This document shows positions 1,436-29,075 of a stretch of DNA of 64,000 nt, piece after piece; the stretch's first letter is position 1; each line of letters begins with the position of its first letter. This stretch comes from Neofusicoccum parvum (lineage: Eukaryota > Ascomycota > Dothideomycetes > Botryosphaeriales > Botryosphaeriaceae). The stretch is taken from assembly GCA_020912385.1 (NCBI GenBank), contig CP087215.1, forward strand, positions 806,001 to 870,000. Reading direction: 5' to 3'. Made by a program: the position numbers and the translations under genes. Below the pieces are notes generated by a model, which had not been told where the DNA came from, searched no databases, and was given only the letters and a program-made list of their open reading frames with translations.

Positions 1436-3613
1436 TTATTGTTTAATCTTCTTCTCAGGCTTGCGACCTTTAGAGACCTTTGAACTTGCAATCTTCCCAT
1501 TCGCTTTCAGCTTGCCACCGACGCCAGCACCATCGCTCTCGTATAGCGTCACCCATAGGTTGTGACGGTTCACATGCGACGTGATACCGTGCACCGTCCT
1601 GTTCGGACGCGGATCCGTCTGCTTCGCCTCTCCATTCTCATCCACGTACATCTCGCAGCGCCCAGCCCAGAACCGGTTGAACTCCTCGCACATCTGCTTA
1701 GCAGACGGACGGGGGTCGGCGTACTTGTGCCGCTCTGCCTGATCCCTGAGCCACTGACACTCCTCCTCCGTCCACTTGCGGAGTGTCATGTCCTCGCGCA
1801 GGGGCGGGCAGCCCCAGCGGCGGAGCCACTGATTGGCCCACTTGTTCAGGTTGGCCATCTCTACCGCGCTGTCCCAGTCCAGGTCTGAGACCTTGCGCTC
1901 GCCGGTTTTGGACCAGGTGTGGGACTTCTTGACGCGGGAGCCATCCTTGTCGTTGCAGAAGTAGTGAATCGTCAGTTTGTCCGTCTGATCCTGGCCCACG
2001 ACGAAGGAGGGGCGGGGACCGATGAGCTCGAACCCGTCCTTGCCTCGGACGATGGAGTAGGCGGGGATACCGGTTCCAGTGGCTGAAGTCGTGTTCTTAA
2101 CTGCTGTGGTCTGCGCTGTGGGTGAAACGCTTGAGGCGTCGGGTGTACTCCTGGACGGCTGAGGACGGGCTGAAGTGGCCTTTTTGGCCTCAGGCTTGGA
2201 GGAGGCGGGCCGATGGCGCTTTGCTGGCTTCTTGCCAGTGAGTCCGCTCTCTGTAGGCTCAGGTTCCGAGGCCTTGCGCTTGTTGGGCTTGTTGGAGCCC
2301 GAACTCGCATTAGCTACGGCAGTGTTGGCAGGAAGGTATGCACTCCTGATGCTCCTCTGAGGTCGGTTGACGACATTCTCCTGGATGCGCACGCTCTTCC
2401 TGGTGCCTGCGGCTGTCAGGTTGTTGCTACCAGGAATATGCTGAGCCGCACTAGCCAAAGGTCCAATGGTCGGGTGTGTCGTGTTTGGGGTAGGAGCTGA
2501 TTGAATGATCTTCTTCACGACTGGAGCATCGCTGGTATTGGTAGCGTGAATTTCGTTGGCCTTCCGCTTGCGGTGCTGAGCAACAGTGGCCGGTCTCATG
2601 GAGCCCTGGACCCTTGGTTGGCCGGATTTCAGACCTGTGAGTTTGAGTAAGAAGGTGTGCGAGTATCGACAGCTATCCGTAGCTGCTGAGCTCCTAGGCA
2701 TAGGCTTCTTGCTGTTGCCCTTCTCGCTGCTTTGGACGTCCCTAATCGCGGTCGAAGCTGAACGAGTAAGCCTACCCGAAGGCTGCGCAAGATTCCTGAG
2801 CTTCACGACCTTGCGAACACCTGCAGGGTCGGAAACTTTCTTCTTCTGTTTCGTTATCTTCTTTTGGCCCGACTTCGTCCTTCTGGGCTCCGCTCTGCCA
2901 GGACTGTGTGCACAGTTCTGAACTTCCCTCCACGTCTTCTCGCCCCATGTCAGGTGTAACCATTTATTAGTGTTTTTACGGTACTGCAGATGTTGTGGGG
3001 TGCAGACAAGTGAGATCACGCGGTCGATGTCCATGGTAGATGGTGCTGTAGCCCGGACGTCGCCACTGGTGTGAGCGTCGTCGGAGACCATCATGCTGGT
3101 CAAGCCTTGGGCTCTGGCATGAACCAGAGCTTCTCGCAAGGCCAAGAGCCACGAATCGAAGTCAATATTGGGGAAACTTGTCAAGATTCTCCGCATGACA
3201 TCTTCCGCGTAAGGTACGGGGACATTTTGGACCTCGGCGATCTCGATCAACTGGTCCTGGAACTGCAGGTAGGCCTGTTCGTGCTCAGCGATGGAGTGAA
3301 CATCCATGTTATCCAACTATAAATTAAGCAAATGTCAGATGGGTCTTCACATCGCCATATCAATGAATTTTTTACCACGCAATCTCTTTGAAAGTAGTCT
3401 TCGATGGCCGTACGTAGTGTATTCCCTGTCTGCTTTGAGGCAGGTTGAGAGGAGCGCGATGACAGCGACACGGAACGACCCGTATACACTGAAGCGCATG
3501 GGGTCAGTGGCAGCTGGAATTTCCGGGGTTGCGTACTTACTTCTGTAAAGCTCTGGGCTGCGTTGTGCAAGCTCTTCATAGGCTCCACCACCTGGGGCGA
3601 GGTCGTTGTCCAT
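1436..3613 (-). CDS. A1: Myb/SANT-like protein of the tandem group-A family
   Basis: Three exons: 3613-3541, 3488-3376 and 3316-1436, with introns of 52 and 59 bp (donors GTAAGT and GTAAAA), giving 688 residues. The last exon alone has no ATG at its open-frame start, and the upstream exons restore one (MDNDLAPGGGAYEEL). Residues about 65-130 are an acidic helical segment, and about 140-480 are disordered, basic and Ser/Thr/Pro-rich. Residues 491-647 form the shared core: PSFVVGQ, then YFCNDKDG, then DLDWDS with LNKWANQWLRRWGC, then RKWTEEECQWL and EEFNRFWAGR. The W-T-E-E start and helical spacing are typical of Myb/SANT-like DNA-binding domains. Nuclear role and DNA binding are inferred. Nearest relatives in the window are A2-A5. 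I recognise no named orthologue. Confidence 0.72.
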
Positions 3614-4710
3614 TTTATGGGTGCTGAGTAGACCACGGAAGGTGGGTAAGTGAATTTTTGGGGATGGAATTCGTGTAACTGTGGTGGGTCTTGTGTGGTT
3701 GCGGGTGTTGGGAAAAGCAGCGAGGACGGCGCGCGAGCGATGTTGTAGAAAGAAAGCAGGAGGAAGAGGTCGCGCCTGTAAAACCATCGCTTAACATACG
3801 GTCACCACGGTGTTTCGCGCGCTCGATTAGGTAAAGTGGGCCCTAAAACAAGCGCCTGACGCTGGCCGAGGTGCAGGCTGGTAGAGACGCCTGAACTCTA
3901 CGTCGACGTCAACCCAAATAGAGCCTCCCATGCGAGTCACTCCGCACGAGTCTCCATACCATCCACCCCTGCACTCCGCCGTAATCACTGATCCAGCAAG
4001 GCTCCAAGATAGTACAGAAACCGGGCATGGTCTGGCCTCTCGGCGGAAGCTGACCTGGCCGAGCGGCCGAGCCTGTGAACCATGCAACCTAGGAAAGGAA
4101 ATAGAAGGTATTTTGCGGAATCTATGCAGAGGCTCGGACTCGTTGTACACACGGTTTGACAATATGGCCGTCAGAAAGGATTTGAAAGGTTCTCGCGATT
4201 AATGCAAAGAACACCACTGGCGCGACATCTCGTAAGTGGAGACGAAGGATAGATTCTCCGGCATTTTCTGAGAAAATACGACATAACTTGAAAAGAAGAG
4301 GGATCTCCTTGGACTATAGACACCTCAGGGCCGGAGCACTCGTCGTTCATGACAACCAGTTTCATGCTGTAACAAAGAGATTCCAGTATGCAGCTTTGGT
4401 ACATCAAAGGCTTATTGGAGTTTACAGTGGAAAGATCATGAGGTTGACTATGTATTAAAGAGTTTTATACTAATTCTGTAGGGCCGTAGAGGATAGATAT
4501 GATTTACAACCTACTGAAATACTCGGTTGCCCACTATCACGCCCTGATTGATGACAACATCCTCACATGTTTGGCTCTGGTCATGCTGTAAGACAAATCA
4601 TACATTCAAATAGTCAGCCTTGCAGAGCACAGGTTGCTTTCCGGACTACCATCACTAGCAAAGCTATGTTGCGTGCAGTCCTGCCAAGCATGAAAGAACA
4701 ATCGGGAAAC
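3614..4710. other. Intergenic
   Basis: No supported gene. The plus-strand block AGGAGGAAGAGGTCGCGCC at 3758-3776 lies about 150 bp before the A1 start and matches 18 of 19 bases of the block before B1. The remainder up to the SDR stop codon is moderately AT-rich and without clear coding signal. Confidence 0.4.
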
Positions 4711-5710
4711 TCAAGCCCAGCCTACCAGGCCCGTGACCAGTTTGTGGCCCGCTAAGATTTCTTCCTTCTTCGCCTTCAGCTCATCAACATCCCAGTTGAC
4801 CCATACGAATTTCCCTTTCAGAAACTCGCCCTCTGGGCTGGTCAACCAGACCAAAAAGTGGCCCGGCAACTCAGCTGCGGGTTCGTTAGCTTCCATTAAA
4901 GACCGGCAGGGCGGACTGTTCACAAATCAAGTGCAAGCCCTTGAACAAAAAAAAGAAAATAGACTTACGCTCATCAAGAGGCATGTTATACGACTCAGCC
5001 CCCGACTTGATCAGCATATCTGTCTTGACGACGCCCGGCTGGACATTGAAGAACCTCAACCCCGGATTCTCCGCCTGCATCGTCTCGACCACGCGCGCCA
5101 TCCCAATCTTCGACCCAGCGTATGCCGAGAAGCCCAGAAACGGGGGGTTGATGTGGCAAGCACCGGCGGAAATGTTAACGAACGCAGCGCCAGGCGCCGC
5201 GGCGTCGGGGGCCAAGAAGTGGCGCGCCAGCAGGTAGACGCCCTTGACGTTGACCTCCCACGCGCGCCACCAGTCAGCTACGTCAGCGGACTCCTCGCTG
5301 TCGTCGGGAGCGGGAGGCACGGCTGTGGTGGTGGGGAAGTACCCGGCGTTGGCGACGAGCACGTCGATGCCGCCGGGCGCCAGCTTCTTGGCGTCGGCGA
5401 AGGCGCGCGCGACGTCGGCCTCGCGCGACACGTCGCCCACCACGACGGCGACGCTGGTCGAGGGGTGGGCTGCCTCGATGCGGGTCGCGATGGCTTGCAG
5501 TGTTGTGGCGGTGCGGCCCATGACGACCAGGCGCGCGGCGCCGGCTTGGGCGAAGCCGTCGACGATGCCGGTGCCCAGGCCGCGCGCGCCGCCGCTGATG
5601 AATATGGTCTTGCCGGCGGCGGAGAGCTCGGGGCGGGAGGGTGAGATGGCGGCGTAGCTCGAGTGGTGGAAGGTGGAGGTGTAGTCGGTCTCCCACGTTC
5701 TGTGAGACAT
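4711..5710 (-). CDS. Short-chain dehydrogenase/reductase (SDR)
   Basis: Two exons, 5710-4969 and 4874-4711, with a 94-bp intron (GTAAGT donor, GCTAACG branch, CGCAG acceptor), giving 301 residues. Classical SDR signs: Rossmann cofactor motif GGARGLG at 40-46, NAG at 121-123, Asn154 in WEVNVKG, Ser181 in NISAGA, and catalytic Tyr197/Lys201 in YAGSK. The second exon supplies the usual fungal C-terminus (LPGHFLVWLTSPEGEFLKGK), which supports the splice. It is expected to carry out NAD(P)-dependent oxidation or reduction of a small alcohol or carbonyl in the cytosol; the substrate cannot be read from sequence. It has no visible link to the flanking A-family genes and no biosynthetic cluster partners. 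Five 16-bp repeats with CGG triplets lie 310-390 bp upstream of the start and may be regulatory. Confidence 0.9.
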
Positions 5711-6810
5711 GGTTGGTCGGGAAGCTGGTTGGGGCGTCCGCTGCTAATGATCAATTGAAAGGGTCGAGGGCTCGGTGAAAATTGGCAATACAGAGGAGGA
5801 TAAGGGAGCTGGCATTCATTAAATAAAGTCAATAAACAGCCTGTAACTCATCCCAAGATCGCTAGTCGAGAGAAGCGGAGATCCATCAGTATACCCCTGC
5901 CCATGTTCCAGAATTCGTGCTCCGAGCGAACAATTGTTGTGCTCTACTGTCCTATAGGATAAAGAGCTGGTCCTAAGGAGCTACAGTACTCCTTCGGCAT
6001 GCATGTCAGCAAAGCTAGACGGAGGTAAGCTGGGCGGAGTTAAGGCAGGGCGGAGATAATGCAATACGGAGGTAAGACTTCACGGAGGTAAGGCCAGACA
6101 GAAATCTGGGTGAGGGGTTGGATGAAAGACCGGACGAATGACTAGATGTAGGGATGTTCTCCTATGGCTGTTGTTTGACGCATTGTTGTAGCCAATGGGG
6201 CTGCATGGATGAAAGCTCACCAGATATCCAAGGGGTTTCATTTCAACCCTGCCGGTGCACCGTGTGTTTGTTACATTGTTTAAGACAGATAGAGCTCTGT
6301 TTATTTAGAGGTAATGGAGTAGTCCAATCCAAATTTCTACTATAGAGCATCCAATACAGCAATTGTAATGGCATCGAAAAGAAAATTACCTGTGCCCTCC
6401 GCCTGAACTCCGAATGTTGCCTATACTTCTTGGTAGGAAAGTATACCATCATGAGAAATCCCGCCTACGAGTTAGCTAAGGGAAAGAAAAACAAAGAAAA
6501 CCAGCAATCTCCGCCATTATCCAGGCAAACCGCACAAAGAATAGAAAACAAAGAAAGTGAACCCATGACAAGAACGCTATCCACCTGTACAAGCCTGCAA
6601 CACCATTCTGTCAAGCACTCAAAAAGCAAACACCAGTATCAATTACCATCTGCTTCATGATCTAGTCATACCTATACGGGCTGACGTCTTGCACGCTCGT
6701 CCCTCACTACCGCCTGTCAGAGCCCTCTGAACTCATACAGCAGCCAACCACCTCTCTCTCTCATCCCAGTATACGCCATTGACAGTGGAATAAGCGTGGG
6801 CCTTGTCAGC
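5711..6810. other. Intergenic, mostly without coding signal
   Basis: Apart from the short tandem repeat at 6020-6098, nothing convincing. 6100-6660 is AT-rich. The stretch serves as upstream region for the SDR and downstream region for A2. Confidence 0.4.
6020..6098 (+). repeat. Five-unit 16-bp tandem repeat (CGGAGGTAAG core)
   Basis: CGGAGGTAAG or one- to two-base variants start at 6020, 6035, 6051, 6067 and 6083, a period of 15-16 bp. The six bases between cores differ. CGG triplets are typical half-sites for fungal Zn2Cys6 factors, so a regulatory role for the divergent SDR promoter is possible, but this is inference. Confidence 0.75.
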
Positions 6811-9003
6811 CTACTCCTCATCCTCCTCATCCACCTCCCTGCGGCCGTCCATCTCCTCGTCTATGGAGATCCACTCGTCTCCAGAGTCGACGGCAGGTGC
6901 AGTATCGCTTAGAGACTCAGAACCGGTCTCATGCTGAGTGGCACCAGCAGGTCCAGCATCTGCACCAGGCTGGGAGGTCAGAGCAGCCTGAGCGCCCACA
7001 AAGCCATCATCAACCGCAGCAGGTACACCACCTCCAGACGCCCTCGTCGCCCTACCCGCCGCACCCCTACGCGACGACGGCGTCAACCACAACTTCTTCG
7101 CAGCCGCATGTGAGCTGACCGCCTGCTCCGTCCGCACCGGGACGCGCCTCATCTCAACAACACCCGTCACCCTATCCCTAACCGGCATCTCCCTCCCAGC
7201 CACCCTCTCCACAAACAACCTGCAGCACTCCGCACGCGACGCCCCCGGATTTTCCCACTGCAGCCGCGCCAGCGCCGCGTCCTCCTCGGCGCTCCACGCC
7301 TTGTCGGCGACGCTCTCGCGCGCGACCGGGCAGCCGTGGCGCCACATTATCTGGCCGACCCACTCGTTCAGCAGGCGCACGTGCTCTCCGTCCGCCCAGT
7401 CGATGCCGCCGCGCAGCGACTGCTTGCGCGCCCGCACCGCCGCCGAGTCGCCGCTGCGGAGCACCGTGTCGGGCTTGTAGTGGTGCTGCTTCAGGTACGG
7501 CTGGCCCTGCCGGTCCGTCAGCCAGTACCGGAAAGGCAGCTTGTGCGACTGGTCGCCGCCGTGGCGGATGAAGTGTGGGGGCGGGCCGTGCGTGCGGAAG
7601 CCTTTGCGCGTGCCGTGGACTTCTTGGGTGGGGTCGCGGAGGTAGGGGCTGCGCTGGTCTTTGGTGGGGCTGATCTTGGAGGATTGGCCCTTTGGTGTGG
7701 CTTTGAGGCGGTTGGAGGGAGGTGGGATGGGAGCGCTGGGGGCGGTGGGCATGCCTGGAGAGCCGAAATAAATGGCGTTGGAGGTTTGGCTGGGGGAGGA
7801 AGCTGTAGTGGAGCGGGGCGCCGTTATGTGGCGAAATTCGCGGGAAGGTTGGACCTCAGCTTGCTCTTGGCCGGTTGAGGTGTTCCTCTTCCTCTTCTTC
7901 CTGCCGTTAGTCGTGGCGTCGTCCTGGCCCATGCCTAAGGGGCTGACGTCAACGGAAAGTTGAGTGAAGAGACTAGGGCGCGGCTGGTCGTTACCAGAGG
8001 GGTCAGGAACCAGGCCTCCAGGGTGGTAGGTAGTGCTGACAGTGCGAGTGGAAGCCCTGGTACGTGTGACCTCTCTGGTGTGGAGTTGATAGGCGTAAGC
8101 GTCCATGTAAGATGAACGAGCATTGGCACTGCTCGTGATTCTGCGGCTGGTGATCGTCTGGCGAGGTGCAGTGGGCACGCCAGGAGTCTCCTCGATGGTG
8201 TTCTGACGAGATATAGTGGGAGCTTCTACGATCTCTCTAGCAGTATCCACACCAATGGCGCTGTCATGATTACTGGCAGTGGCACGAGTGGTGTTGGAGG
8301 GCTGGCTCGCAGGCACCGCAGCGGGGCGAGCTGCAGCTCCCTCACGGAGATGCCGCAGGTTTACTCCTATCCACTGAGGAATCGTGAAGTGCTCGAACAC
8401 CTGTACCCAGCCATGCATTTGAATAAAGTCATCGAGCATTTCCCAGGCCTTCTCTTCCTCTTCTTCTTGTGTAGGCTGCAGCATCGCGACGGCCGGCTGG
8501 GTTGGGATGAGGGGCTGAGGAGTATGGGTCGTGGTTGACAGTGGAGTGCGTTGCGAAGTCCTAGGTGGTTGAAGATTCTCCAGCAGAACCATCTCGATGG
8601 TCCTATCCATCGCGACGAACCTACGGTGAGCTCCGGGATCGCTCTCCAACACCTCTCCGTTGGAGCCAGGCCTAAAGAAGGTGGAGCCGGTGTGGTACTC
8701 CTCACGAGCACGACGGATCATGAGCTCCAGAAGGTCGTCCTGAGGCAAGGCTGGAATTGTGATCGCCGTGTTTTCTGGAGACGGAGCGACGGCGAGCTGG
8801 CGTTCGACCACAGCCTTGACATGGCGCCATTGCTTCTCCGTCTCGGCCGTGAATTTCTTCATCTCTTTGGATGGAGTGGAAATAGTTGTCAGAGAGGCTG
8901 TATGAACGCGTTAGCTGTAAATGACGCGGTGTTCTGGACGGGTGGCATCGAGCTTACCCTGCCGCTGGCGAGCAGCGTCTGGTTGATGGCGAAGATTGGC
9001 CAT
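6811..9003 (-). CDS. A2: Myb/SANT-like protein of the tandem group-A family
   Basis: A short first exon (9003-8958, MANLRHQPDAARQRQ) joins by a 60-bp intron (GTAAGC donor, GCTAACG branch, ATACAG acceptor) to exon 8897-6811, giving 710 residues. The middle (about 130-450) is low-complexity, Ser/Thr/Pro-rich and basic (RKKRKRN, probably nuclear targeting). Core at 458-616: KLPFRYWLTDRQG, GIDWADGEHVRLLNEW, IMWRHGCP, then AWSAEEDAALARLQ and a helix ending VERVAGRE. These line up segment by segment with A1. The acidic C-terminus contains DEWISIDEE (about 689-697), which resembles a SUMO-interacting motif, and ends in a run of Asp/Glu. Function unknown; DNA binding in the nucleus is the likeliest role. 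Confidence 0.7.
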
Positions 9004-9858: not shown

Positions 9859-11175
9859 CTAAAACTCCTCATCCACCTGTGCCTCGCCCTCTCCCTCGCC
9901 CTCCCTCTCCCCCTCCCCCACCACCATCCCCGCCCTCTCCACCACCGCCTCCACACTCCTCCACGGCCTCGTCACCACCCTCCACCCGCCCCCCTCCCTC
10001 ACCCAAACCTCCCTCCCGGCCCACCACCGATTATACTCCCTCGCCAGTGCGCCGCCCTCCCACCCCTCCGCCACCAGCTCCGCCACCGTCCGCTCCTCCG
10101 CCTCCACCCACCCGATCGCGCGCGCCCGCCGCAGGCACCCGCGCCGCGCCAGGAACCGGCGCACCCACGCGTCCAGCGCCGCGATCTGCGTCGCGTCGCC
10201 CCAGTCGATGCGGTCCGCCGCCACGGGGTACCGCGTCGCGTGCACGCCGGCCAGCCCGTTGGTCGTGTAGCGCAGCACCAGGCCGGAGGGATTGGGGACG
10301 CCGGTGGTGAAGGTGGGGAGGGGGTGCGCGAGGCTGAAGTCCGAGGTGCCGCAGATGGGGGTGGTGTAGGTGGGGGTGTGGGGGCGGGGGCGGGGGCGGG
10401 TGCGGGTGGGGCTGGGGGAGGAGGAGGAGGTGGTGGTGGTGCCGGCGTCGTGGTAGTCGGAGTCGCTGGGGTTGTCGGGGTATGTTTCGAGGGCGCCGAT
10501 GACGGAGGCGCTGGGGGAGGAGGGGTCGCTGTCGTGCGGGCTGGGACGGCGGCGTCGGATGGGTGAGCTGTCTTCGCTTTGGTCGTTCTCGTCGTCGTTG
10601 TTGGCGCTGCCGTCGTCGTCGTTGGAAGAGCCGTGCTGGCTGGGGTGCGGGCTTGAAAGCGGGCTTGTTGGCGGGAACGCCTCTCCACGCTCCTCCATCT
10701 GTAGGACCCTTGCGAGGTACATCTTGTCTTCCATGTCAAGCTTGTAGCCGGATGCCTCTATGGCAGCTGAGGTGCCCTGGAAGTTGGACGGCAGGGGTGG
10801 GGATTCGCTGTCTTCCCGGGCATTGTGATCGGCACTGCTGTTGAGAATCGCGCACGCGGAAACCTGGGGTGTCTGCTGGGACGAAACGGGATCGCGGGCG
10901 ACGGCGGTGGTGGCCATGGCGCTGGGGTGAGGAGGGGAGCTGGAGGGAAAGAGGATTTGTTCGAGCGGCTTCGAGGTGGTACTCTCGTCATCCGCTTCGT
11001 CTACGGATGCGGGAGGCATTATGGTGTCGTTGTGTTTCGGTCGGGTTGTAGTGTTGAGGGTGTGTTCAGCCATGGTGTCTGGCAGGCGCGCGTGGTTGCT
11101 GATAGGGTGGAGCGCAATGAAGGTATGCGGTGGAGGTTTTGTGGTGGGGACGTAATCGGCAGATGAGGAGGACAT
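9859..11175 (-). CDS. A3: Myb/SANT-like protein of the tandem group-A family
   Basis: Single open exon of 438 residues from ATG 11175 (MSSSSADYVPTTK). The N-terminal 260 residues are disordered and acidic, with a Ser/Asp-rich middle and an Arg/Pro run. The C-terminal core (about 270-417) follows the family order: GLVLRYTTNGLAGVH, DRIDWGDATQIAALDAW, FLARRGC, then VEAEERTVAELVAEG and AREYNRWWAGREVW. The DNA-binding helix sequence is more degenerate than in A1. It starts only 72 bp downstream of the B2 stop codon, very close for two fungal genes, so co-transcription or a shared pre-mRNA should be considered. Base composition flips within the gene from C-rich codons (5' part) to G-rich codons (3' part). 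Confidence 0.62.
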   Translation of the reverse strand: MSSSSADYVPTTKPPPHTFIALHPISNHARLPDTMAEHTLNTTTRPKHNDTIMPPASVDEADDESTTSKPLEQILFPSSSPPHPSAMATTAVARDPVSSQQTPQVSACAILNSSADHNAREDSESPPLPSNFQGTSAAIEASGYKLDMEDKMYLARVLQMEERGEAFPPTSPLSSPHPSQHGSSNDDDGSANNDDENDQSEDSSPIRRRRPSPHDSDPSSPSASVIGALETYPDNPSDSDYHDAGTTTTSSSSPSPTRTRPRPRPHTPTYTTPICGTSDFSLAHPLPTFTTGVPNPSGLVLRYTTNGLAGVHATRYPVAADRIDWGDATQIAALDAWVRRFLARRGCLRRARAIGWVEAEERTVAELVAEGWEGGALAREYNRWWAGREVWVREGGGWRVVTRPWRSVEAVVERAGMVVGEGEREGEGEGEAQVDEEF

Positions 11176-11247
11176 AGAAGTGACGCGCTCCGTTGATTGG
11201 CCTCTATCCTTGATTGGAAGCGCGTCGGCGGCAGCTGCGCTGCGCAG

Positions 11248-14200
11248 TCAGGCGGACGCCGGGTTGGACTTTGGGCCGCCGCCGTCACCATCGCCTTCGT
11301 CATCCGAGTCCAGCATGACCGGACTGTCCGCTGAACCATCACCAATCACGTGGCTCATCCCGGGAGAACCTTCCGCCTCGAACACCTCTCCGGGAGTCAC
11401 GGGAGTCAGGTCGACTTCAACAGCCATGGACTGTGCGGCATTGCTGTGGCACTTGCGCTTCATGCTGGACGATACCTGGCTCTGGTCATCGTGCTCGGTT
11501 TCCGCGACTTCAACTGTAGGAGCGGTAGTCATAGCAGTGTGCTCCAGCACAACGCTTCCAACCTCACTTTGATCATTTCCTGAAGCGCCAGCGGCAGCAT
11601 GAGTAGGTCTGAAGGTGACAGTACCGCGGATGCCGTTGGATGGGCCATCGGAATCGGGACAAATTCTCGCTGTGGCGGCTTTCAACTCCGCCGCTGGATC
11701 GCTGTAGGGATCAAAGCCAGGCCAAGTAGAAGCAGAAGACCCGACAGAGGGGACGCCAACCGGCTTGTTTCCAACTTTACCGCCTTCACTCGTTCGACCA
11801 GCCCTGATCAGTTCCACGCGTCGAGAACTCTCCACGCGGCGAAGATCCGCCGCCGGGCTGGGTTGGTTGCTCGCAATCGCGGCTTTCAAAGCCGCGACCG
11901 GGGCCTTGTATGGGCCCAGCTCCAACTCAGGGCGACTGACAACGGGCGTCTGTGCGGGATCCTGTGCCGCCTGATCTGTTCCGCCACGCTCCACGTTTGA
12001 TCCGGAATATACGGCACGGCGGACACCAGCTGGCAGGGCGTCATGGCTGAGACGGTATCTGGTCATGACGGTCCTCAGTGCGCCGACGGGGTCACCAGTT
12101 GCGTTGATACCGGACCCAGGACCGTATATCTCGTCGAAGGGGTTGTGGACGGGCGCCGCCTCCAGATCGGTTGGCTGTTGGTTTGCCCTGGTAGCTCCGA
12201 TGTTTGGCTTGGAAGGTTCGGCAGGGCGAGTGCGCTGAGCGACGGGCTCGTTGGGAGTGAGAATAGGCGACGCGGCAAGAGTTGCAGTGGGCTTCGTGAA
12301 CGGGGCGATCTCGATACTGCGCTCTTCATCGTCATCAACGAGGACGAAAGGGTTGCCAGATGATCCTGTTCCAGGGATCGGCACACGTACAAAGCCCTCG
12401 GCAGCATCGCGTGTGGATGATGAAGGACTGTCAAGGTCCATCTTGTCGTCATGGCTTTCAGCATTGACAAGAACCCCAGTCGAAGAAGGTGCCAGAGCCG
12501 CATCGATACTCGGAGCAGCCTCTCCACCATGTTCTTCTCCGTCAGAGTCCAGGGCAACGGGGCTATCCTCCGACCCCTCCAGAGCCCGCGGGTTCCTCCT
12601 GGGTAGACCTTCCGCCCTGGCTTGCTGATCCAGCCATGCAGTTTTCCGGCGCGTACTGGACTCTACATCCCCACTCATGCCCTCGGTTCCAGTGTCCACA
12701 TTGCCGGTAGTAGCAGGGCTTCCGCCGTCTTCAGTACCGGGAGCATCCATGACCATATCCGAATCGCCAGCGACCTCGGCTTCCACGCCCAGAGGATTAC
12801 CTGCAAGACGGTCAGCGTCAGCCGCGGCAACGAATGTAAAGTCAGGAAGCTCCATACCGTCGCGCATCTGCTCCCAGCCACTCTCAGTCGAGGGTTCCCG
12901 CACTCCATCTGGTATCTCAACTTTGTGTGAATCGATGGCCTCGGCAGCAGCACTGATTGCCGCGTCCGCCCAGTTGTTGTTTGTGTCAGGACCGTTGGAT
13001 TCGGGCTCTTGGGTATTGGTAGCGAGCTGGCGGGAGCCCTCTGGCTTGGGCGAGCGGTTTAAAAAGGGAGGACTCGATGAGCTGAAGCGGTCGGCGTTGA
13101 TATCGACGGGGGCATCGGCGGTGGAGAGTGCCGCATGGGCGATGGAGGGATCCAACCGCCGTTTGTCGGAAATCTTGGCTGCTGTCGGCTCCGGGGATGC
13201 AGTGTTGCTGGGAAAGAGCATGTTCGCGAGGCCCGTCGAGCGGTCGATTGCTGTATCGGCTTCACTGGCGTTCTGCGTGGTAGAGAGTTGTGGCTGTGGC
13301 CCGCTCATGGTTTTATCGGCAGTGTAGTTTGTCGTAGCGTGGTTGCCCGAGAAGAGGTAGTTTGCTTGATTGTCTGTGGCTTTGTCGTTGTTTGATGTGA
13401 TGCCTTCAGACAATGAGCTGCTGGGCTCAGGAACGGGAAGCTTTGTAGATGTTAACGCAGGGGCAGCGTTCCTCAGTGCATGGAAGCTCTTGATCGGTTC
13501 AGAGGCTGTGCTGGCGATAAGATCAGACTGTTCAAGACCGTTGGTGTTGTTTTCGGGCGTAGTGCAGTTGCTGGAGAACAGAATGGCTGCCAACGGCAAC
13601 CCGGAGTCTTGTTCTTCCGGACTGTGAGATTCGGCCGCTGTCACTACGTCCCGAGAATTCTCGTCCTGCTGAGAGCCATAGGCGGTACCAGATGCTGTAG
13701 TTGCTGCAGCTGCATGGTTGGGAACGCCCAGCTGGCTCTGAGGCAGCCCATCCTGACTCCTGCGCGGCGAAGTATCCGATCCGGAGCTTTCTGGGTCTCC
13801 AATGTCAAAACTCTTGCTTCCACGTGGACTTTGGGACTGGTTCACGGAGGTCAAAGCACTACGAAGCCTCTTGGCGATGCTGCTTTCTTCTTCGCTGTTC
13901 TCGGAAAACGCAGAAGAGCTGCGCTTGGTGACGGTCTCTGGGGATACAGGCTCATCGGCAGGATCAGCGAGCAAACTGCGCCTGCCGGTATAAGTCTTTG
14001 TGACGTTTGCTGACATCCGATTGTCGCTCTTGTGCTTGCTGTTTCCCTCCACGGAGTTGCTTTCTTGGCTGCCTGCCATGTTTCTTTCTGCACCGTTAGA
14101 ATTTCTCATGGTTTCGTTGACAGACTTCTGGAAGGAGCGAGGACGTTGGATGGTCTCTTCATCGGACCTCCAGCTCATCTTCCTACCAGGAGATGTGGGG

Positions 14201-17625: not shown

Positions 17626-18826
17626 CTATTCGATGACAAGCTCGGCAGCCTGTGCGAGTATGGCCAGGCTGGTGACGCCAAGCTGAGAAGACGGTTGTCC
17701 AGAGTTAGAATCAGGCGGCGACGCCGACGTAGAATCCGACTCTAAGCTAGGCACCTCAATCGCCTCGGCTTCCTTGCCAGTACTCTTGCCCTTTTTCTGC
17801 GTCGTCGTGCCTTTCCTCTGTGCAGATGTCGTCTTAGCAGCCTTCCTCTTGCGCTTTGCGCGCTCTTTAACGGTAGGTTGTTCCCCATAATGCTGCTTAC
17901 GCGTCGGATTGACACCAAAGACGACCCGGTTGACGATATCGGGGTTGCGTTGGTAATTCCGCATGCCCACCATGTTGCGCTCATGCGACGCCTCAGCAAC
18001 GGCAACCTCAATCTCATGCTTCTTCGCAGCCTCAGAGACGCCTGGCCGGGAGTGGTTTTCAACCTTCTTGTCGTGGGCGACTAACAAGTCCATCGCGTCC
18101 TGCCTCTGGACCGCGGAGCGCATGTTCGACAAGATGCATGCCGCGTCTACGTCGTCAGCACCCACGTCTGGCATCATGGCCAGAGTCCGGTCGAGTATCT
18201 CGTTCTGCTCGACGATGGGGTCGCCGCGCACGTTGGAGGCCGGAACGTTGTCACAGTCAGGCACGTCAGGGTCGCGAGCAAGGACACGGGGATACCGAGG
18301 GCTGGGGGGACCACGAGGGCCGTCAGGGTGAACGCCCATGAGGGCGAGGTCATCTTCGAGCTCTTCATCCTCGAGATTGCCTGGCTGGGTTGGATAGAGG
18401 CAATCGAAGACGCCTGGATTACCGCCGGTCATATAGTTTGTGGTGGTGTTTCTGACACGGCTCAGCAACGTCCGAACGCTTCGCTGCGCCGAAGGCTTAT
18501 GCCTGCTTGTGGGAGGCAGATTCAAAGGCTGGCCTATGAATGAGAGTCACGCTTGTCAGCTTGAGATCCCATTGCGACCTTTATTTTCACTCACCGGACG
18601 CGGTGTCGCTCGCGATAGGGACAGGCTCGGTGGTAGTGTTACGCGTCGTGCGCCCGGATTCGCGTACGTTGGACGTTGGGAGGTCAAATGAGACATCTAA
18701 AGAGTATATTATTAGCTGGGCATGTAGATGTAGTGTATGTGCAAGCTTACTCGGCGCAGAACTGTCAGCATGAGGTTGAGACGCGGTGCTGTTGCGCGCG
18801 GTCCCGCTGTTCTTCTTGCAGGGCAT
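17626..18826 (-). CDS. B3: group-B nuclear protein
   Basis: Three exons: 18826-18751, 18696-18595 and 18533-17626, with introns of 54 bp (GTAAGC, branch GCTAATA, TTTAG) and 61 bp (GTGAGT, branch GCTGACA, CATAG), giving 361 residues starting MPCKKNSGTARNS. Residues about 85-130 (NPGVFDCLYPTQPG, EELEDDLALMGV) match B2. About 150-240 (EILDRTLAMMPDVGADD, then SHERNMVGMRNYQRN) match B1 and B2. A Lys/Arg cluster near 280-310 may be a nuclear localisation signal. The protein ends in a short helix (SLAILAQAAELVIE). Much shorter than B2, so it lacks the long acidic tail. The broken A4 copy lies directly downstream, repeating the B-then-A order of B2-A3. Function unknown. Confidence 0.65.
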
Positions 18827-19648: not shown

Positions 19649-20804
19649 TCACCCCCCACCCCTCCCCTCCCCTTTCTCCGCCGTCTCGCCCGCCATCCCA
19701 GCCGCCGCGCTCCCACCCTCCCCCCTCACGCTCTCCGGACTCTTGCTCTGGTGCTCCCGCGCCTTGCGTGGCGTCAGCGGCTTCCCGAACGCCCCGCCGC
19801 CGCCGGAGACGACGCGCTTGCCGCGGCCCTCATAGAGCACCGGGTCGGCCATGCGAAGCGGCGGCTGCGAGGATGGCGAGGTCGTCGAGTTTGCCGGTCA
19901 GGCCGGAGCGGCGCTGCGCGGTGCCGGGGGGCTGCGGCGTCGAGGCCGTAGCGCTCTGCGTGGGGTTTCTGGCCGCGCGGGTGGTGTTCGTCTCGCGCTG
20001 GTTCTTCTCGCGCTTGTTGTGGGGCTCGCGGGCGTCGTTGCAGGCGTGGTTGTCGTAGTCGTGCTTCTTGTAGTCGTGCTTCTCGTAGTCGTGCTTGCCG
20101 TCGTCGTTCGCGGGGCCGGCTCCGCTTTTGAGCGCGTCGCCCGCCCGTTGGCCCGTCGCGGCGCCTTGGGTCGGCGAGACGCGCTTGCCCCGACGCGGCT
20201 GGTTCGTCGCGGACGCGGTCTCAGGGGCAGGGGCGCCGGCGTTGGCTTCTGTCTTAGCGCGCTTTGTGGTGCCGCTACTGCGCGGCTTTCCCGCGAAGAC
20301 GAAGCTGGTGGGCCCGTCGGGATAGACGCTTTGGCCGCGCTTGACGGAGGTTTCGGTCAAGGCTTCCAAGAAGCGGGTATGGTCGGCGCCGCGGTCAGTG
20401 GAGTCGGCGCGCTCGCGCTTGTTGCTGTTGGTGCTGCTGCGCAGCTTGCGCGGCGAGAGGGAGACCGGCGGATCAGAGGTGGCGCCGGCGGAGGGCGTCA
20501 TCGTGGCGCTGTCGGAGAGTGTCATGGCAGTGCTGGACGGCCTGCTTCCGCGAAGAAGGTGAGCTGGGCGCTTCTGCGTCGGCGGCTTGCTGGGATCAGC
20601 TGGGCGGATCGTCGAGCGCTCGGGTCGAGCCGGTGTGGCGTCCGGCGGGGAGCTAGCAGGCTCGAACACAAAGGAGTTGTCTTTGCTGGGCGTGGTGGGA
20701 GGCATGGCTGAACGAGAAGCGCTTTGTTGGAAGTGGACAATGTCTTGTGGCTTGGGCGTGCTCAAAGATGGTGTTGTGGAAGAAATCTTCGTCGGGGTGT
20801 CCAT
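19649..20804 (-). CDS. Basic, disordered protein of unknown function, 3' end possibly frameshifted
   Basis: ATG 20804 opens 324 residues to a stop at 19830. It is Ser/Thr/Pro/Arg-rich, with SFVFEPASSPP and SFVFAGKPRS repeats of a short theme, and three KHDY units (near residues 240-255, encoded by a 15-bp repeat at about 20045-20095). It ends RRSGLTGKLDDLAILAAAA, a short helix reminiscent of the B3 C-terminus (SLAILAQAA). Skipping one base near 19855 leads into another open frame (RMADPVLYEGRGKRVVSGG, then GKPLTPRKAREHQSKSPE) ending at 19649, which reads like a natural continuation. So either the gene stops at 19830 or a +1 lesion or sequencing error has cut it short. No recognised domain. 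Its place in the minus-strand array and its composition suggest a nuclear protein. Confidence 0.5.
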
Positions 20805-22134
20805 GTCTTCGAGACGTTGTCTGGCCTTCTGCGGAGGAAGAAGATGCGGCGAGCGGGAAGGTGGTTTCGATCTTAACGAAGGTCTTGCGGTTCGAGATCA
20901 TGTGCAAGGGAAGAAAGTCAGAAGGTCTCGTGATTAGGGTGTTACGCGGAACATGCTCAGAGCAGCTACACCTCACTGCAAACTGACTTGCATGGCAGCT
21001 TTACTAGAGCTCGCAAGCATCTCTGCAGTGCAGGTAGACTGCCTGCTTGACACGATTCTTCGGCCATATCATCCTCTGTACTGTCATAGCTCAAACCCAC
21101 TGTGCCTCCATATTCAAGAGTCCACAAACCTGGAGGCTATATGTATACGAACATGATGCGCGTCGTCAACCTGACCATCACTAAATTTCACAGAATATCA
21201 CAGCATTCGTTGGTATTACGCTTAACTGCATTTCTACGTAGAGATTACTCCTTACTATCCAAGTCAAGAAGGCCTCGGCGGGTTGGTGTAGTGCCTGTTC
21301 GTTCAGTGACCACAAGCACATCCCGCCCTTCGTTACCGGTACTGCTAAACACGCAATCTCAAGTCCTCCGTTGAAACCCCAAGCCGAAGGCCTTTCCATG
21401 TCACCATCTATCTGCCCAAGTCTGAAGCAAACAAAAGAAAAAAAATTAAGAAAGAGAAGCAGTCAACATCCTTCCGCCAACATGTATGTGTGTCAGCATT
21501 GATGAGAGGTAGCTAGCACGCGTATCGGAGCGTGTCTCTGAAGGGAGACTTCGCAAGAGTTATGCTGGCGATTGCTCACAGGAGAGGAAAAGCGTTGATC
21601 ATGGACTAGTATGATCGATTGACCAAGGGCCAACCGGTCGTTGAGAAGTTTGAATGTAAAGTGCCGTCCGAAGGAAGTCTGGTCGAAGAAGACCGAGTCG
21701 TTACGAGGAACGGTCAATAAGGAAACCTCGATCAATGAAGCCGAAGTAACCAGATGATGTCGTCCAGATTGGTGTTATGAGAAGCAGAAGTAAAGGTGCT
21801 GGAGTATGAAGGAAGCAGGATGAAGAAAGCTTTTGGTGAGTAACGAAGTCCGGAGAAGGACATGAACTGTCCAACTGATTGCTAAGGACCAATGCTCATG
21901 TTGCTGTGGCAAGCAATGTTTGCGATTGGATGCAACAGGCATTCAGTCCAGAGATGGAGAAGAAAACTAAAGAACTGATGGTATGGGACAACTCGCAGCT
22001 GCTGGATGTCGCGATCAAGCCAATGAGCTGACAGGATGTGAGAAGATGCTAGTGCTGTTCGTTTGAAATGCTGCTGTGGGAAACTGAAGGTGAGAGAAGA
22101 GTGTGGTTGGCCACGATGGGGTGAGGTCGAACAA
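20805..22134. other. Intergenic
   Basis: Nothing supported. 21000-22000 is AT-rich with only short random open frames. Confidence 0.4.
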
Positions 22135-23609
22135 CTAGAGCAGCCACGACTGCATCTTGACGTCACGGGTCGCCTGGTCGCGCTTTCTGGCAAGGTGAAG
22201 CTTGGTGGTGTGCTGGAAGAAGTGAGAGGTGGCGTCCGAATCGTCGTCAGAGTCTTCCTCGCGCTTGATGCCATCGTCGTCAGAGGAGGTGTCGCCCTCG
22301 AAGTGCTGGACCTCCTGGTCGCCGGCATCGAACATCTCGTGGATGCCCTCGGCCACCAGCTGGTCGTGGAGAGCATCAATGCGAGGCCGCAGGTTGTGGT
22401 TGTCGATCGCGCAGGAGACGGCGTGGTCGGTGCGGTGGTACCCGAAGGCGTTGGTCACCAGGCGAGCAAGCTCGGCGCGAGGCATGTCCGGGTTGTGGCC
22501 GAGCTGGTCAACCATGAAGTTCAAGGCCTCGGCGGTCCACTTGTGACGGGTCTGGCGGGAGGTGATGCCCAGCTTGCGCTGACGGAACTGGGCGCGCCAG
22601 CGGTTCAAGCTCGAGATCAGAGCCGGATCGTTCCAGTCAGAAGGAGGAGCGTGAATGTTCATGCGACGACGCATGGTGCCGTCGGAGCGGACCTCGTTCT
22701 CAATGAGGCAGAGATAGCGCGCCTGGTCCTGGATGCGGGTCGTAAGGCACTGCGAGTTGGGGATGCGCTTCGCAATGCGGCCCTTCACGAAGGGGACGTT
22801 GTAGTAGGCAAGTCCGGTGGTCGGGAAGTGAGCGCACATGGGAACGGAACGCTCAGTCGAGAGGCGAGGGGCGGGCTTGCCAGCATTGTAGTCCTCGACG
22901 GTATACCACATGGGAACAAAGACCGTCTTCTTGTCATCAATCTTCAGAGCCTTGAAGGGCTCAGAGAGAGCGTTGACCGTGCAGTCGGCCTCGTAGCGGC
23001 CTACGCAGATGTTGTTAGCATGAGTGCAGTGCATCCGAAGTGAGATAATAACATACCGTCCTTCTCATTGAACACAAAAGTGGGGCCCTTGTATTCATGT
23101 TTCTTGGAATGACGATCCGAAACGCGCTTACCGCCAGTGGGCTGGCCGCAGATGCACTTCGTTGGGTGGTTCAGAACGACAGTGTTGATGGTGTGCTCAC
23201 ACGGCTTGGACATCGGACGAGCCTCACACTTGAGCTTCGTATCCCAGAAGACACCATTGCGGATGGGATAGTGAGGGCCGTCAATTTCCATCACATCGTC
23301 AGTGTCATTTTCATCCTCCATCGCATCCTGAGCGTCACGAATGCCCTCCAGGGACGCCTGGATGATCAGCTCAGTGATATGGGCGTTGCCAAGGTCAGTG
23401 TCCGGACTTGAGATGAGGTCGCTGGCGATCGATGAAGTCATTGGGGTTTCCTCGCCGTGAGAGTGGTCAGCATGATACGTCGCGCGCTGCGGGAACGGTG
23501 AGGTTTTCGACGGGCTAGGAAGCCCAGTGAGATCCATCTTGGAGGTAGACTTGTGGGTCGACTTGGCGCTCGACGGCTTCTTGGAGGTGGGTGCCTTGTG
23601 GGCGGTCAT
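22135..23609 (-). CDS. A5: Myb/SANT-like protein of the tandem group-A family
   Basis: Exon 1 23609-23057, 56-bp intron (23001-23056, GTATGT donor, TGCTAACA branch, GCGTAG acceptor), exon 2 23000-22135; 472 residues starting MTAHKAPTSKKPSS. No ATG exists in the longer open frame upstream. A likely 5'-UTR intron (23617-23665, GTAATT...TGCAG) ends 7 bp before the ATG. Residues about 120-180 contain spaced Cys/His (KPCEHTINTVV, KCICGQ) that could bind zinc. Core at 303-385: PSDWNDPALISSLNRWRAQF, then HKWTAEALNFMVDQL and ELARLVTNAFGYHRT, aligning with A1; the W-G-C is replaced by KLG. Near Lys430, IKREED followed by SDDDSD is a textbook SUMO-acceptor motif with acidic extension. Best-preserved gene of the set; probably nuclear and DNA-binding. 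Confidence 0.75.
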
Positions 23610-23665
23610 GTTGTCCCTGCAGCTGTGAGAAAGGCTTTTGGCAGTGAGAGAGGGCGATAAATTAC

Positions 23666-26600
23666 CTGTGGTAGAGCCAAAGCAAGAGTCGTCGGCGTGG
23701 ATGTTATCGCTGTGTGCGAGAGCAAAGGTAGTAGAGGATCGAGGATGAGGAAGGTCAGAGGATGATTTTGCTGGATGCAAGGTGCGTATAGCGAGGCTAC
23801 CAGCTGTGCGCGAGGTAGAAGGGTGTCGGTTGTAAGAGAGAGCGGAGGAGGAAAAGTGTGAGGCTACGGGGTTTTATAGCGAGAGGGCACGCGCGCGTCG
23901 GCGGAGGGCGATGCCAAGAGCGACGCGTGAAATGATAGGACGCGTGTGGCTGGGAGAGCTGCGGGTGGTGCTGCGTCGCGGCGCTGCTGATGGACTGCGC
24001 GCCCTCGCCGTCCGCCTGGAGGACCACCGTTGGCTGTGCTGCCCCATTGGGAAGCGCCTGCGAGAATCATCAGAGCCCAGATGGCGGCTTCACCTAGATG
24101 AGCATGTAGACACACTTCGAAAGCAATCGCCTTACTGGCCTGCTGTTGCGACGTGTCGGACTCTCCCAGCAGAACCGCGACGAGCACCACAGCGACCCCT
24201 TCTGCTGTCACTTCAACACTGGCGGCGCGCCGACGCTGATAGCGGACAGGCAGCCCAAGCAAACTTTGTACAGATCCTGGGCAATTCTCCCCGGTATATA
24301 CAGCTACTATAGCACTGTTCTCTATCATCACAGCACGCATTCCCCTCTGCCGATTCCAGCTTATCCAGCCGCCCGTCCAAGACCGCTTCCAGTCCATCTT
24401 GCACGATAATCTGGAGCCCAATAGGCCTCTTCATGGCATTTATTCACCTTCAGCCGAGCATTGTTCGGAATCCATGCTGCCTCGATGGCAAACTACGAGC
24501 CCCGAGAAGCTTGCGAGCCCGAACCCTGGGTGCCTTGAACCCCACAGCATACTAAGAGCCAACGTAGGAGAACGAGATATGTGCCATCATCGCCCATAAT
24601 CTTGCTGCTGCTTCTGCTCCAGCTCCGCAAGATTGAGATTACCGCTCTGGAGCATCACAAGGCCTGCTGCCGGGCTCGTGGACTCACCACGGCCACAGGA
24701 TTCTGTCACTTCGCGAGAACCGGCCGTGGCCTGCTACTACCGCACGGCAAGCTTGTCCCAGCTGCTCCTGCCGAAACTGGAATTCCTTCACAGGCAGCAA
24801 AGCGGCCTAGCCAACTCCCCAAAGATCACAGGGTTGTCACACGCTGCTCAGTCAGCACGCGAGGTGCCTCTACCCATTTCCGGCTAGCTCAGTCCATCCG
24901 GTGAAGTTACTTAAACCCCCCTCTTCCTCGGCCAGGGCTCCTCTTTTCTTCTTCAGCTCTCTTTGCCACTTGGCTTAGATTGACGGCAGTGTGCCTAAAC
25001 TGCGGGTGACTCCGTAGTTGCGTTCCACGGAGCGTGTTCGACTATGGTCCCCCAAATTTTTGGAGTCCGGACTAAGGCCGCTGAGCTCGCTCATGTCTTG
25101 GACCACAGTGTCGCCAGTATTGCACTGTCTCTGGCTGACGCGAACGTTGCTCTTCTCTTTTTCGTTGAGCCGCTCGCCATGCGCGGGCGCTTGAGGAAGA
25201 AGATCTCTGGTCCTTGCAAGTCTTGTGTTCGGTACCTCCGCCCGATTAGTCCTTGATGGTAGTTCTCTTGAGTTTATTCTCTGCTGACAAGACGTCCTGT
25301 TGGGTTCACGATGTACTCATCTCGATGTTACATTGCGAAGGCCTTTTGACCACCCTTGCCCCTGCTATTTGATGATCCATGTCGGCTCATGTTTGAGAGA
25401 TCTCTGTCAATGCTGTTCTGTTGCGTTAGCCTGCGAGGGCACCCGACGGCGTGCTCAGCTACAGTATCTCTGGCTTTACGACCCCAGAAAATGCTGTCTG
25501 AATATGTCGCTGGCTCAACTGCGCTTCATGATGCCTCGTACTCATGTGTTCTCCTTCTGCCATCCAAACGAGACTGTTCGCTCAGGTCTGCAACACCCTT
25601 CCAACACTTCCGCTCGCTCGCCTTCCAGCCATCTCTTCCTCCTGCACGCCAGCTACTGTATTCTTCGTTCGGACGACCTCTTTTCAAGGACCCATGGGTG
25701 CTTGAGATGCCTGACTGCCGCTCCTTAGATTTCTGGGTTTATGGAGCAGCCCAGCGCGACCGCACTGACCCAGGACGTGGCGCTAGACCACCAGCGCCGC
25801 GGCGCATAGCCCAGGAGTCAGCCAGGCGTACGTCTCTAATCTGATGGAGCGAGATCTAGCAGCTGTGGACGGTCTTTACGTGCCAGCATGTGTTGCGGCG
25901 GGCAACCCTGCGGCCTCCGCTGCCACCCGTCGCGGGGCGGCGGCGCCCCCGGTCGCAGTCACTGAGAAACTCCCGCCCGCCCGAGCGACACAGCCCGCCC
26001 GGCCCGCTCACAGATTGGCCTTTGGACCTTGACGGCACTTGTAACCCCCTGCGAAGGGGACAAGAGAACAAGGGGCCGATGGTTCCTCGCTGCGACGCTC
26101 GTGGAGGTGCCGCGCGCCGGCAACAGCTCGCCCGCGCCGCCTGGGAGAGAAGATCTGGCGGTGGTGGCTATGCCACGATGGTGAGCATCCGCGGCTCGCT
26201 CGCTGGCGGGCCTATTCCCGGCTTACAATGCAGGCGACATCATTGGCTGACAGGGCTGCGCGACGAACGCGACGCCAGCAGAGGCGGATCCCGCGCGCCC
26301 CTGAACAGCTGCTAAGTTACTACGAGAGCAAAATCTACAGCGATGCTGATTGAGAATACGTCTAGCATTCCGCCCCTGCGACCCTGTGTATTGTGCAGAG
26401 CACCAAGACCAAGCGCCGCAGCGGTCGCCGCCGCTTTCTTGCCCGCCAGCTCGGACGCGCGCGACCGCTGCTCTTCTCGGTCGAAAGGTCAGGATATGTA
26501 GATAGATTTGGAGCCAGGAGCTTGAAGCAGTGGCCACTGATGCCCCACCAGCGGCACACCTCCGACGAGCTGCCACCGACGAGCTGACGTCTCCGACGTG

Positions 26601-27249: not shown

Positions 27250-28319
27250 CTAGTTTCCAGCCACCTGCTGAAACCATATTTAAATCAGTATTGATACCAA
27301 TCATTAACCTTTGGGCGGCAGCTGGCGTTCGGGCGTTGCCGTGATGGTAGTAGTGCAAATGGTGGCTAATTTGAGATGGTCGTACGATGGGAAAGGTGTT
27401 GATGAGCAAGAAATATGTCAGGAATGACCGGAAGCCGAGGTTTGATTGCAGTAAATTTTATATCTGATGAGATGTATGGGGGTGATTGAAGGATATTGAG
27501 CCGATGGCGCCAGTGATAATGGTAGTCACTCGCGCACAAAAGCCATCAACTATAGAAAGCCTAAACAAAAAATGCTTACATATCCCCAGCAACTGCGGTG
27601 GCACAGTCCTACAGGCCGAAATTTCCCCTCTAGTGAAAAGACCGCCCGCAGCATCAATGTTTCCTCTCTCTCAGTGGAAGTCCCGCTCACACCACCATCC
27701 TCTCCCTTTTCTACTCTTCTCCTGTGCTCTCGTCGTCCTTCTAAGTCCTCAGAATCCAAACAACTCATGCACATCACGCGAAGGTCACAATTTCTTACGC
27801 TGACCTTTACCAATATCCATATATGTTCCAGCCATCGATATCTGTCTAAGTCGTCCATCAAGTCAGCTTGCGCATGCATCCCTTAGAGAACAGCTCGATC
27901 AGGAAACCTGAAGTCTTCATACAAATATAGCCAGATTCTTCTTCACAATCTCCTGGCGAGGCAACACCGCCGGTCAGATTCCACATACTCGTTTCCTATC
28001 CAATTCCATCTTAGCACCATCAAACATCCGAATCAGCCAACATACTCTTTCGCACATGTTGACCCAACCCCACATTTCTACCCATAGGCCCATATAGAGC
28101 GGCGCGGAGAATGACTGTCTGCTGTGGCCGATGGACTCCGCGGCAGGACCGCTTCCGTCCACTCACGCGGCACATTGTCAGGCGCGTTCAGAAAAGTGGA
28201 TGGTCAAGATGGCCAAGGGTGCCGTTGTTGAAATATGGCCCGCTAAACTATCCATCGATCTCACGTAACGCCCCATATCTTTACTAAAGTTTCCGGCAGT
28301 CTTACTCTCTCTGCCAGCT
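27250..28319. other. Upstream region of the small gene and intergenic
   Basis: 27290-27480 likely holds the missing 5' exon of the gene ending at 26967. 27490-28319 shows no supported gene. Confidence 0.3.
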
Positions 28320-29075
28320 TCACTCCTCCTCGACATCCTTTTCGGCCTCTTCCTCAGTTCCCTTGACTTCCTCCTTCATCTCCTCCAGCGTCTCCCTAAA
28401 TTTCTTGCCCTTGGTGAACCTCCTGACCGCTTCCACCGACCTTGGCCTGAAGGGAATCACGCCGCCGCTCGGATGCGGGACAAACTTCCCACTGAAGTGT
28501 TCGTCCAGCAAGTTTGCCGCCTTCCGGACAGTTATGGCGGGCTCTTTGAGGAACTGCCGCGCCAAGAAGCGTGCCTCGTCCGTGGTCCAATTCTGCTGGC
28601 GCTGTGAGGGGCCGGTGCGGTTCGAAGGGGGAGCGGGCGCAGCAGGGACGGCATTCTCTTCTGTGACACAGTTGGCAAGCTCGGCGGTCCAGTTATCCCA
28701 GAGAAACTCGAGCGCAGCCTAAATACCATCTGTCAGCACTATCACGCGCCCGGAAGGGGATCATACAGCAAGCTTGGTGTCGCCGGGGATAGCCAGATCT
28801 TTGAGTGCCTGCTCCATGATCGCTTCCACCTTGGCGCGAATGGCGGCGGCGTAGTTGGCAGCGTCGTCGATGCCGCGCAGCTCGTCCATGGAGTCTTGTT
28901 CAAGCATCTCGTTGGCTTTGCGGGTGGCAGCGTGTGTCAGGTCGTGAAGTAGCTCAATGTTCGGGACATCCCTGTCCGCATCGACGTTGGCGGCAAGAGT
29001 GCGGTTGAGAACGGCGGTTGTGGACCCGTAGAAAGCATCCTGGCAGGAGGAAAATGGGTCATGAGCCGGAGACAT
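28320..29075 (-). CDS. A6: small protein with Myb/SANT-like domain, distant group-A member
   Basis: Exon 1 29075-28767, 48-bp intron (GTATGA donor, GCTGACA branch, TTTAG acceptor), exon 2 28718-28320; phase 0 join, 235 residues starting MSPAHDPFSSCQDAFYG. The N-terminal 100 residues are acidic and helical. Residues 104-120 (AALEFLWDNWTAELANC) and 146-205 (QNWTTDEARFLARQFL, LLDEHFSGK, then RPRSVEAVRRFTKGKKF) have the W-T-x-E-E-like start, the F-x-G-K turn and the basic third helix seen at the same spacing in A1 and A5. The tail is a Glu-rich stretch (EEEAEKDVEEE). It lacks the W-G-C segment of the longer members, so membership is an inference from the SANT-like part and its position at the end of the array. 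Confidence 0.65.

Follow-up and report, generated by a model that had tools for sequence, protein, structure and literature searches.

We analyzed a 64,000-nucleotide stretch of the Neofusicoccum parvum genome (bases 806,001-870,000 of contig C10, CP087215.1, in an assembly of 44 Mb and 18 contigs; hereafter, the window) and found that it holds the right-hand part of a tandem array of genes for a protein family with a common C-terminal domain of about 165 residues in its members A1, A2, A3 and A5 (Table 1). About nine members lie on C10:797,962-835,075, in the order Am3, Am2, Am1, A1, A2, A3, A4, A5 and A6, so that the array extends over about 37 kb and its left end falls outside the window; within it, A4 and A6 are the members of lowest certainty. 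We regard the family as real and, within the searches made, undescribed: It combines a SANT-type fold with a front half of its own and is encoded in one old tandem array. A preliminary description of the window had counted six loci. A1, A2, A3, A5 and half of A6 stand, A4 is spread over three frames, and three more members lie to the left.

The extent of the array was defined by searching the genome with single cores. The A1 core returned itself and 5 other sites, all on the minus strand of C10 between 797,962 and 816,356 (E 7e-36 to 0.0125), plus one chance match on C3 (E 1.1), and the Am2 core returned the same 6 sites. Five of these were found with the A3 core, which missed A2, and 5 with the A2 core, which missed A3 and added a chance match on C2 (E 0.41). 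No intact copy of the family was found outside the C10 array in the genome searches made. With A6 as the query, we obtained A6 itself and weak sites elsewhere, none within the array. One of the more distant places, C3:3163319-3163538, contains stops and a frame change, and two consecutive pieces of it match A6 (E 0.0016 and 0.07); it is probably a broken A6 relic. An open reading frame (ORF) about 14.5 kb left of the window (C10:791298-791702) has a SANT-looking stretch, W-T-A-E-E-K, and was excluded as a further member: It had no Pfam match near the cut-off and no genome match below E 0.13, and it was absent from the printed profile matches.

Table 1. Features of the array and its surroundings. 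Positions are those of the window unless C10 is given; aa, amino acids.
Feature	Position	Strand	Description
Am3 core	C10:797,962-798,423	-	Left of window; E 0.0125 with A1, 2.3e-10 with Am2
Am2 core	C10:800,050-800,520	-	Left of window
Am1 core	C10:802,444-802,968	-	Left of window
A1	1439-3307	-	ORF; 623-aa main exon with low-complexity N-terminal part and C-terminal family core
A1 core	1532-2068	-	Predicted beta-hairpin, LNxW helix and SANT-like three helices; small hairpin between helices 2 and 3
Short-chain dehydrogenase/reductase	4886-5743	-	Unrelated gene within array; PF00106 E 1.3e-30
A2	6814-8910	-	699-aa open frame, 683 aa from first Met; core 7081-7614
A3	9862-11247	-	Core 9937-10356
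B1	11251-15393	-	1381-aa open frame upstream of and in frame with A3
A4	15994-16937	-	Family motifs over three frames, two frame changes
B2	17629-18546	-	Open frame upstream of A4; N-terminal motif GNPGVFD...DLAxMG
Low-complexity frame	19833-20897	-	355 aa, between B2 and A5
A5	22135-23609	-	Two exons, 56-nt intron 23001-23056, 472 aa; most conserved member
U2 RNA match	24953-25149	+	56 bits, between A5 and A6
A6	28320-29075	-	Two exons, 48-nt intron 28719-28766, 235 aa; SANT-like half only
RabGAP-TBC gene	36991-39705	+	Possible right-hand synteny landmark
Second tandem array	43764-52327	+	Four paralogous units
C2H2-bearing piece	51119-51634		Within second array
U2 RNA match	53219-53411	+	113 bits

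Shared core and gene models

The homology of the cores was examined by BLAST and by profile comparisons. BLAST among seven cores aligned A1 with A2 at 30% identity (E 5e-18) and with A3 at 26% identity (E 2e-12). Leave-one-out profiles of six members (A1, A2, A3, Am1, Am2 and Am3), tested on 859 real and 8,590 shuffled ORFs, regained every omitted member with an E of at most 5.5e-17, and the best shuffled ORF over all seven profile runs reached E 0.24. The same profiles regained A5 at E 3.9e-6 to 7.5e-4, and a 13-sequence profile without the A5 clade found it at E 1.6e-5. Finally, a profile-profile comparison of A5 with the other members extended over 148 columns, which is the whole core (94% probability, E 1.3e-7). 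The reverse direction is weaker: The A5-clade profile alone gives the A1-type members E 0.012 or worse, and A5 as a single-sequence genome query found only itself.

A6 and A4 are the difficult cases. The six-member profile scored A6 at E 0.021 and the leave-one-out runs at E 0.00027 to 0.33, once worse than the best shuffle. A 20-sequence profile scored the whole of A6 at E 8.3e-5 and its SANT half at 3.6e-5, with best shuffles of 0.35 and 0.51, and two part-profiles gave E 0.2 and 4.1, the latter from the A5-clade profile alone. A6 is borderline with the six-member profiles and clear with the 20-sequence profile, by which alone it joins the family, and only through its SANT-like half. A4, the weakest case of all, scored E 0.011 to 0.86 in the six-member and leave-one-out runs and 0.042 in another profile test; it may be a decayed copy or a sequence error.

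We compared the gene models with records from N. parvum and N. ribis. A1, A3, Am2 and A5 are each 98.9%-99.5% identical to N. parvum records, A1 to P0003 at 99.5% over 387 aa and A3 to P0007 at 98.9% over 352 columns. Of the 472 residues of spliced A5, 466 are identical to the annotated N. parvum protein P0012. A2 is 78% identical to P0005 (N. parvum UCRNP2) over 687 columns, with gaps. A1 is also 87% identical to P0001 of N. ribis over 603 aa, and since P0001 starts further upstream than the A1 main exon, an upstream A1 exon is possible.

Upstream of A3 and A4, the open frames B1 and B2 raise the question of longer genes. B1 carries an N-terminal motif, NPxVFD...DLAxMG. With B2 as the genome query, three matches were returned: B2 itself, a 50-residue match to B1 (E 0.0058) and a chance match (E 1.8). 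When a profile was built from four Am2-type N-termini, B2 scored E 0.0015 and the best shuffle 0.85, and B1 was missed. Between the end of B1 and the first A3 ATG lie one stop codon and 72 nt, and a 54-nt GT..AG stretch (11235-11288) that contains CTGAC covers the stop. The A3 gene thus probably has B1 as its N-terminal part. We infer that B1 and A3 belong, or once belonged, to one gene, and B2 and A4 to another, both built on the Am2 plan: the motif, a low-complexity part and the core. The fact that P0007 starts inside A3, without B1, counts against the B1-A3 join. In the neighborhood of B2, the end of the 355-aa low-complexity frame looks by eye like the end of B2; this frame has no Pfam match.

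Taken together, these results bear out the shared, ordered core of the preliminary description and its expectation that profiles would recover the other members. Its division of the loci into a nearly complete A1-A4 and an A5 and A6 reduced to the SANT half holds for A1-A3 and A6, but A5 aligns over the whole core and A4 is broken. The idea that the N-termini are unrelated was only partly right, because the NPxVFD...DLAxMG motif recurs in the Am2-type proteins, B1 and B2.

Predicted fold

The predicted structure of A1 combines three SANT-like helices with a beta-hairpin and an LNxW helix in front of them, and the whole core is modeled at moderate confidence. For A5, the three-helix unit is modeled with good confidence. 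The predicted fold of this unit is a Myb/SANT three-helix bundle: Its helices superpose on the R2-element Myb domain, c-Myb and the CoREST SANT domain at 1.8-2.5 Å, and on the Myb/SANT entries among the first 20 structural matches at 1.6-3.2 Å over 47-65 residues. A Foldseek search of the PDB gave no match at E <= 0.001 for either A1 or A5. In the alignment, helix 1 starts with an aromatic residue, W in A1, A2, A3, Am1 and the A5 group and F or Y in the Am2 group and Am3. The W-T-x-E-E start and the R-T/S start of helix 3, a pattern of Myb repeats, are likenesses to the Myb repeats. Unlike known Myb/SANT domains, the family has an extra hairpin and the LNxW helix in front, the A1 model places a small hairpin between helices 2 and 3, and the domain escapes PF00249 (Myb_DNA-binding). 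This Pfam model had 26 matches reported in the genome, none of them within C10:791-836 kb, and none in hmmscan of the array ORFs, the six cores and the eight A5-group rows.

No Pfam model fits the family core at the cut-off in the array ORFs, the six cores, the A5-group rows or A6. The homeodomain-like HTH_32 (PF13565) weakly overlaps the SANT-like helices of A6 (E 0.13) as well as those of 5 of the 8 A5-group rows, where E is 0.012 at best; membership in HTH_32 was rejected, as P0018 scored 16.6 bits and A6 13.3 bits against a cut-off of 33.7. Sequence searches of the PDB were also without a credible partner: The six-core profile matched five haemolysin chains only (best E 0.013) and the A5-group profile one elongation factor (E 0.056), both of which we judged to be chance.

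Relatives, age and constraint

A profile search that scored 7,995 candidate proteins found 15 relatives, all at E 2.8e-18 or better. Ten of them are listed with a species (N. parvum 4, Diplodia corticola 2, D. seriata 2, D. intermedia 1 and Macrophomina phaseolina 1), and N. parvum, M. phaseolina and D. corticola were confirmed in the taxonomy as Botryosphaeriaceae (Dothideomycetes). The candidates were proteins of about 212-674 aa, so this search does not prove absence beyond the Botryosphaeriaceae. Apart from Neofusicoccum orthologues and one further record, word-based protein searches with A1 recovered nothing; they missed the wider family because the method needs shared exact words. No paper on this family was found in the titles and abstract beginnings searched. 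Word counts in three Botryosphaeriaceae genome papers (PMC13403568, PMC8905617 and PMC8012773) gave 0 for "Myb" and "tandem" in each; "SANT" gave 0 in one paper and a single author name in another, and "SANT domain" gave 0 in the remaining one.

Both Neofusicoccum and Diplodia are represented in the A5 group of the tree, which has 7 rows and a support of 100/100, as well as in the Am2 group, which has 6 rows and a support of 90/94. A5 orthologues also occur in Macrophomina. The branches of A2, A3, Am1 and Am3 are long, and their placement is uncertain. The Am2-group and A5-group proteins of D. corticola have locus tags ten apart (BKCO1_5000051 and 5000061) and are listed with contigs that are both 269,776 long, so that the two genes presumably share one contig. 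With Diplodia orthologues in both groups and tags ten apart, at least two lineages, those of Am2 and A5, predate the split of the genera, and their linkage is probably older than the split as well.

An origin from a mobile element, in which the core was captured from an R2-like Myb domain or a transposase end-binding domain and then tandemly multiplied, would be compatible with a regulatory role, and we think it unlikely. The order of the tags is kept with D. corticola, no transposon family appears among the Pfam matches of the array ORFs, and the superposition of small helical units is no proof of descent. Moreover, the Starship captain family (DUF3435) has 16 matches in the genome and 0 on C10; the idea that the array is Starship cargo was dropped on the same count.

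Compared within the same proteins, the cores diverge less than the rest. A2 and its UCRNP2 counterpart are identical at 177 of 178 positions in the core and at 368 of 438 aligned outside it; for A1 and N. ribis the figures are 164/179 and 363/424, for Am2 and P0009 101/157 and 54/148, and for Am2 and D. corticola 95/157 and 62/164. These numbers bear on the possibility that the array is decaying, with only Am2 and A5 still functional and the other copies drifting. A4 is broken, half of A6 is lost and a probable A6 relic lies on C3; among the matches, orthologues outside Neofusicoccum were found for the Am2 and A5 groups only, in a search that could have missed others. However, the A1 and A2 cores are better kept than their flanks, and the orthologue search scored no more than the 7,995 candidates. 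We give decay a small chance, and for Am2 and A5 themselves it would be compatible with a regulatory role.

These findings support the view of the preliminary description that the family is an unnamed, Myb/SANT-like one. Of the two results that it had listed as support, a three-helix SANT-like fold is predicted, and as for a clade restricted to Dothideomycetes, the named relatives found are all Botryosphaeriaceae. A local expansion had also been proposed; the tandem array is real, but it looks old and diverged, not recent.

Several other features of the window were noted. Opposite in strand to the first array is a second one, in which four paralogous units share a C2H2-like cysteine/histidine region; between units, identity is 33%-45% over about 92-111 residues, with E from 1e-8 to 8e-26. 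The one C2H2-bearing piece scanned (Table 1) gave a zf-C2H2 match below threshold. A RabGAP-TBC gene lies between the two arrays. Two matches to U2 spliceosomal RNA belong to a U2-like family dispersed in the genome, where a search (46 scored of 464 candidates) gave at least 37 full-length matches over the cut-off, many on C3 at 2.6-3.1 Mb; the 56-bit copy is absent from these.

Proposed function

We favor, with a probability of roughly 0.55, the explanation that these proteins are soluble regulators that bind DNA or chromatin and carry an undescribed domain of the SANT type, and that they are encoded in an old, diverged, single-locus array. No signal or membrane stretch was found in any of 13 proteins by a crude test (largest 19-residue Kyte-Doolittle mean, 1.29), nor a hydrophobic N-terminal signal by a similarly crude one (within the first 40 residues, no 11-residue mean exceeded 1.32). 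Because the proteins appear soluble and have a Myb/SANT-type unit, action on DNA or chromatin is the simplest reading; a nuclear site, a DNA or chromatin contact and a regulatory role would follow from it. Nuclear-signal counts exceeded those of shuffles in only 4 of 13 proteins and gave no general result. Botryosphaeriaceae include many woody-plant pathogens, and a family of secreted effectors would account for the divergence outside the core, the narrow distribution among the matches and the tandem arrangement. Yet the proteins are large, carry a Myb/SANT-type unit and lack a hydrophobic N-terminal or membrane stretch, which makes this alternative highly improbable.

Some caveats apply to this interpretation. 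The hairpin and LNxW helix of A5 are modeled at low confidence, which lowers our confidence in the explanation; the structural matches of the A1 model are weak; and A4 has no space for introns between motifs at its two frame changes.

The charges suggest how the two halves of the domain may divide the work. The half before the SANT unit is net basic in all 13 sequences measured, while the SANT-like part ranges from acidic to basic among members (isoelectric point 4.7-11.5). Helix 3 could be read in 12 of the 13 sequences, two of them incomplete, and its net charge there is -1 to +3. Much of the nucleic-acid contact may therefore lie with the basic front half, and A3, Am1 and similar members may bind protein. 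A related alternative is that the domain is of the SANT type in the narrow sense and binds histone tails or partner proteins rather than DNA, the array then encoding subunits or adaptors of chromatin complexes. We consider this a possibility of about one chance in four. In the A5 group, helix 3 is near-invariant, and this suggests a target conserved across genera.

Under the DNA- or chromatin-binding explanation, the roughly 165-residue domain of each intact member (hairpin, LNxW helix and Myb/SANT unit) would dock the protein on DNA or nucleosomes, with the contact made by helix 3 of the SANT unit and the basic hairpin-helix half. Partner recruitment would be left to the long N-terminal regions; these diverge faster than the core and would vary from one paralogue to the next. 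In this way, one locus would supply several chromatin-targeted regulators.

This scheme recalls the vertebrate KRAB and insect ZAD zinc-finger clusters, which are clustered, lineage-specific families of nuclear proteins. The array resembles them in its tandem arrangement, its narrow distribution and its pairing of a variable part with a presumed nucleic-acid or chromatin domain; it differs in having a SANT-type fold and no zinc fingers, and few, old and strongly diverged copies. It is tempting, if rather doubtful, to see in it the Botryosphaeriaceae counterpart of such clusters: a single-locus bank of SANT-type chromatin-targeting proteins that diversifies against changing targets, such as mobile elements or self/non-self signals, and is anchored by the conserved Am2 and A5.

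The family adds a domain without a Pfam model, consisting of a hairpin, an LNxW helix and a SANT-type unit, which is so far seen in one fungal family only and, in this genome, at one locus. Profiles built in the way described here would allow annotation of other genomes. Since the array is apparently linked across genera and its N-termini diverge faster than its cores, it may serve as a test case for the evolution of lineage-specific DNA and chromatin proteins.

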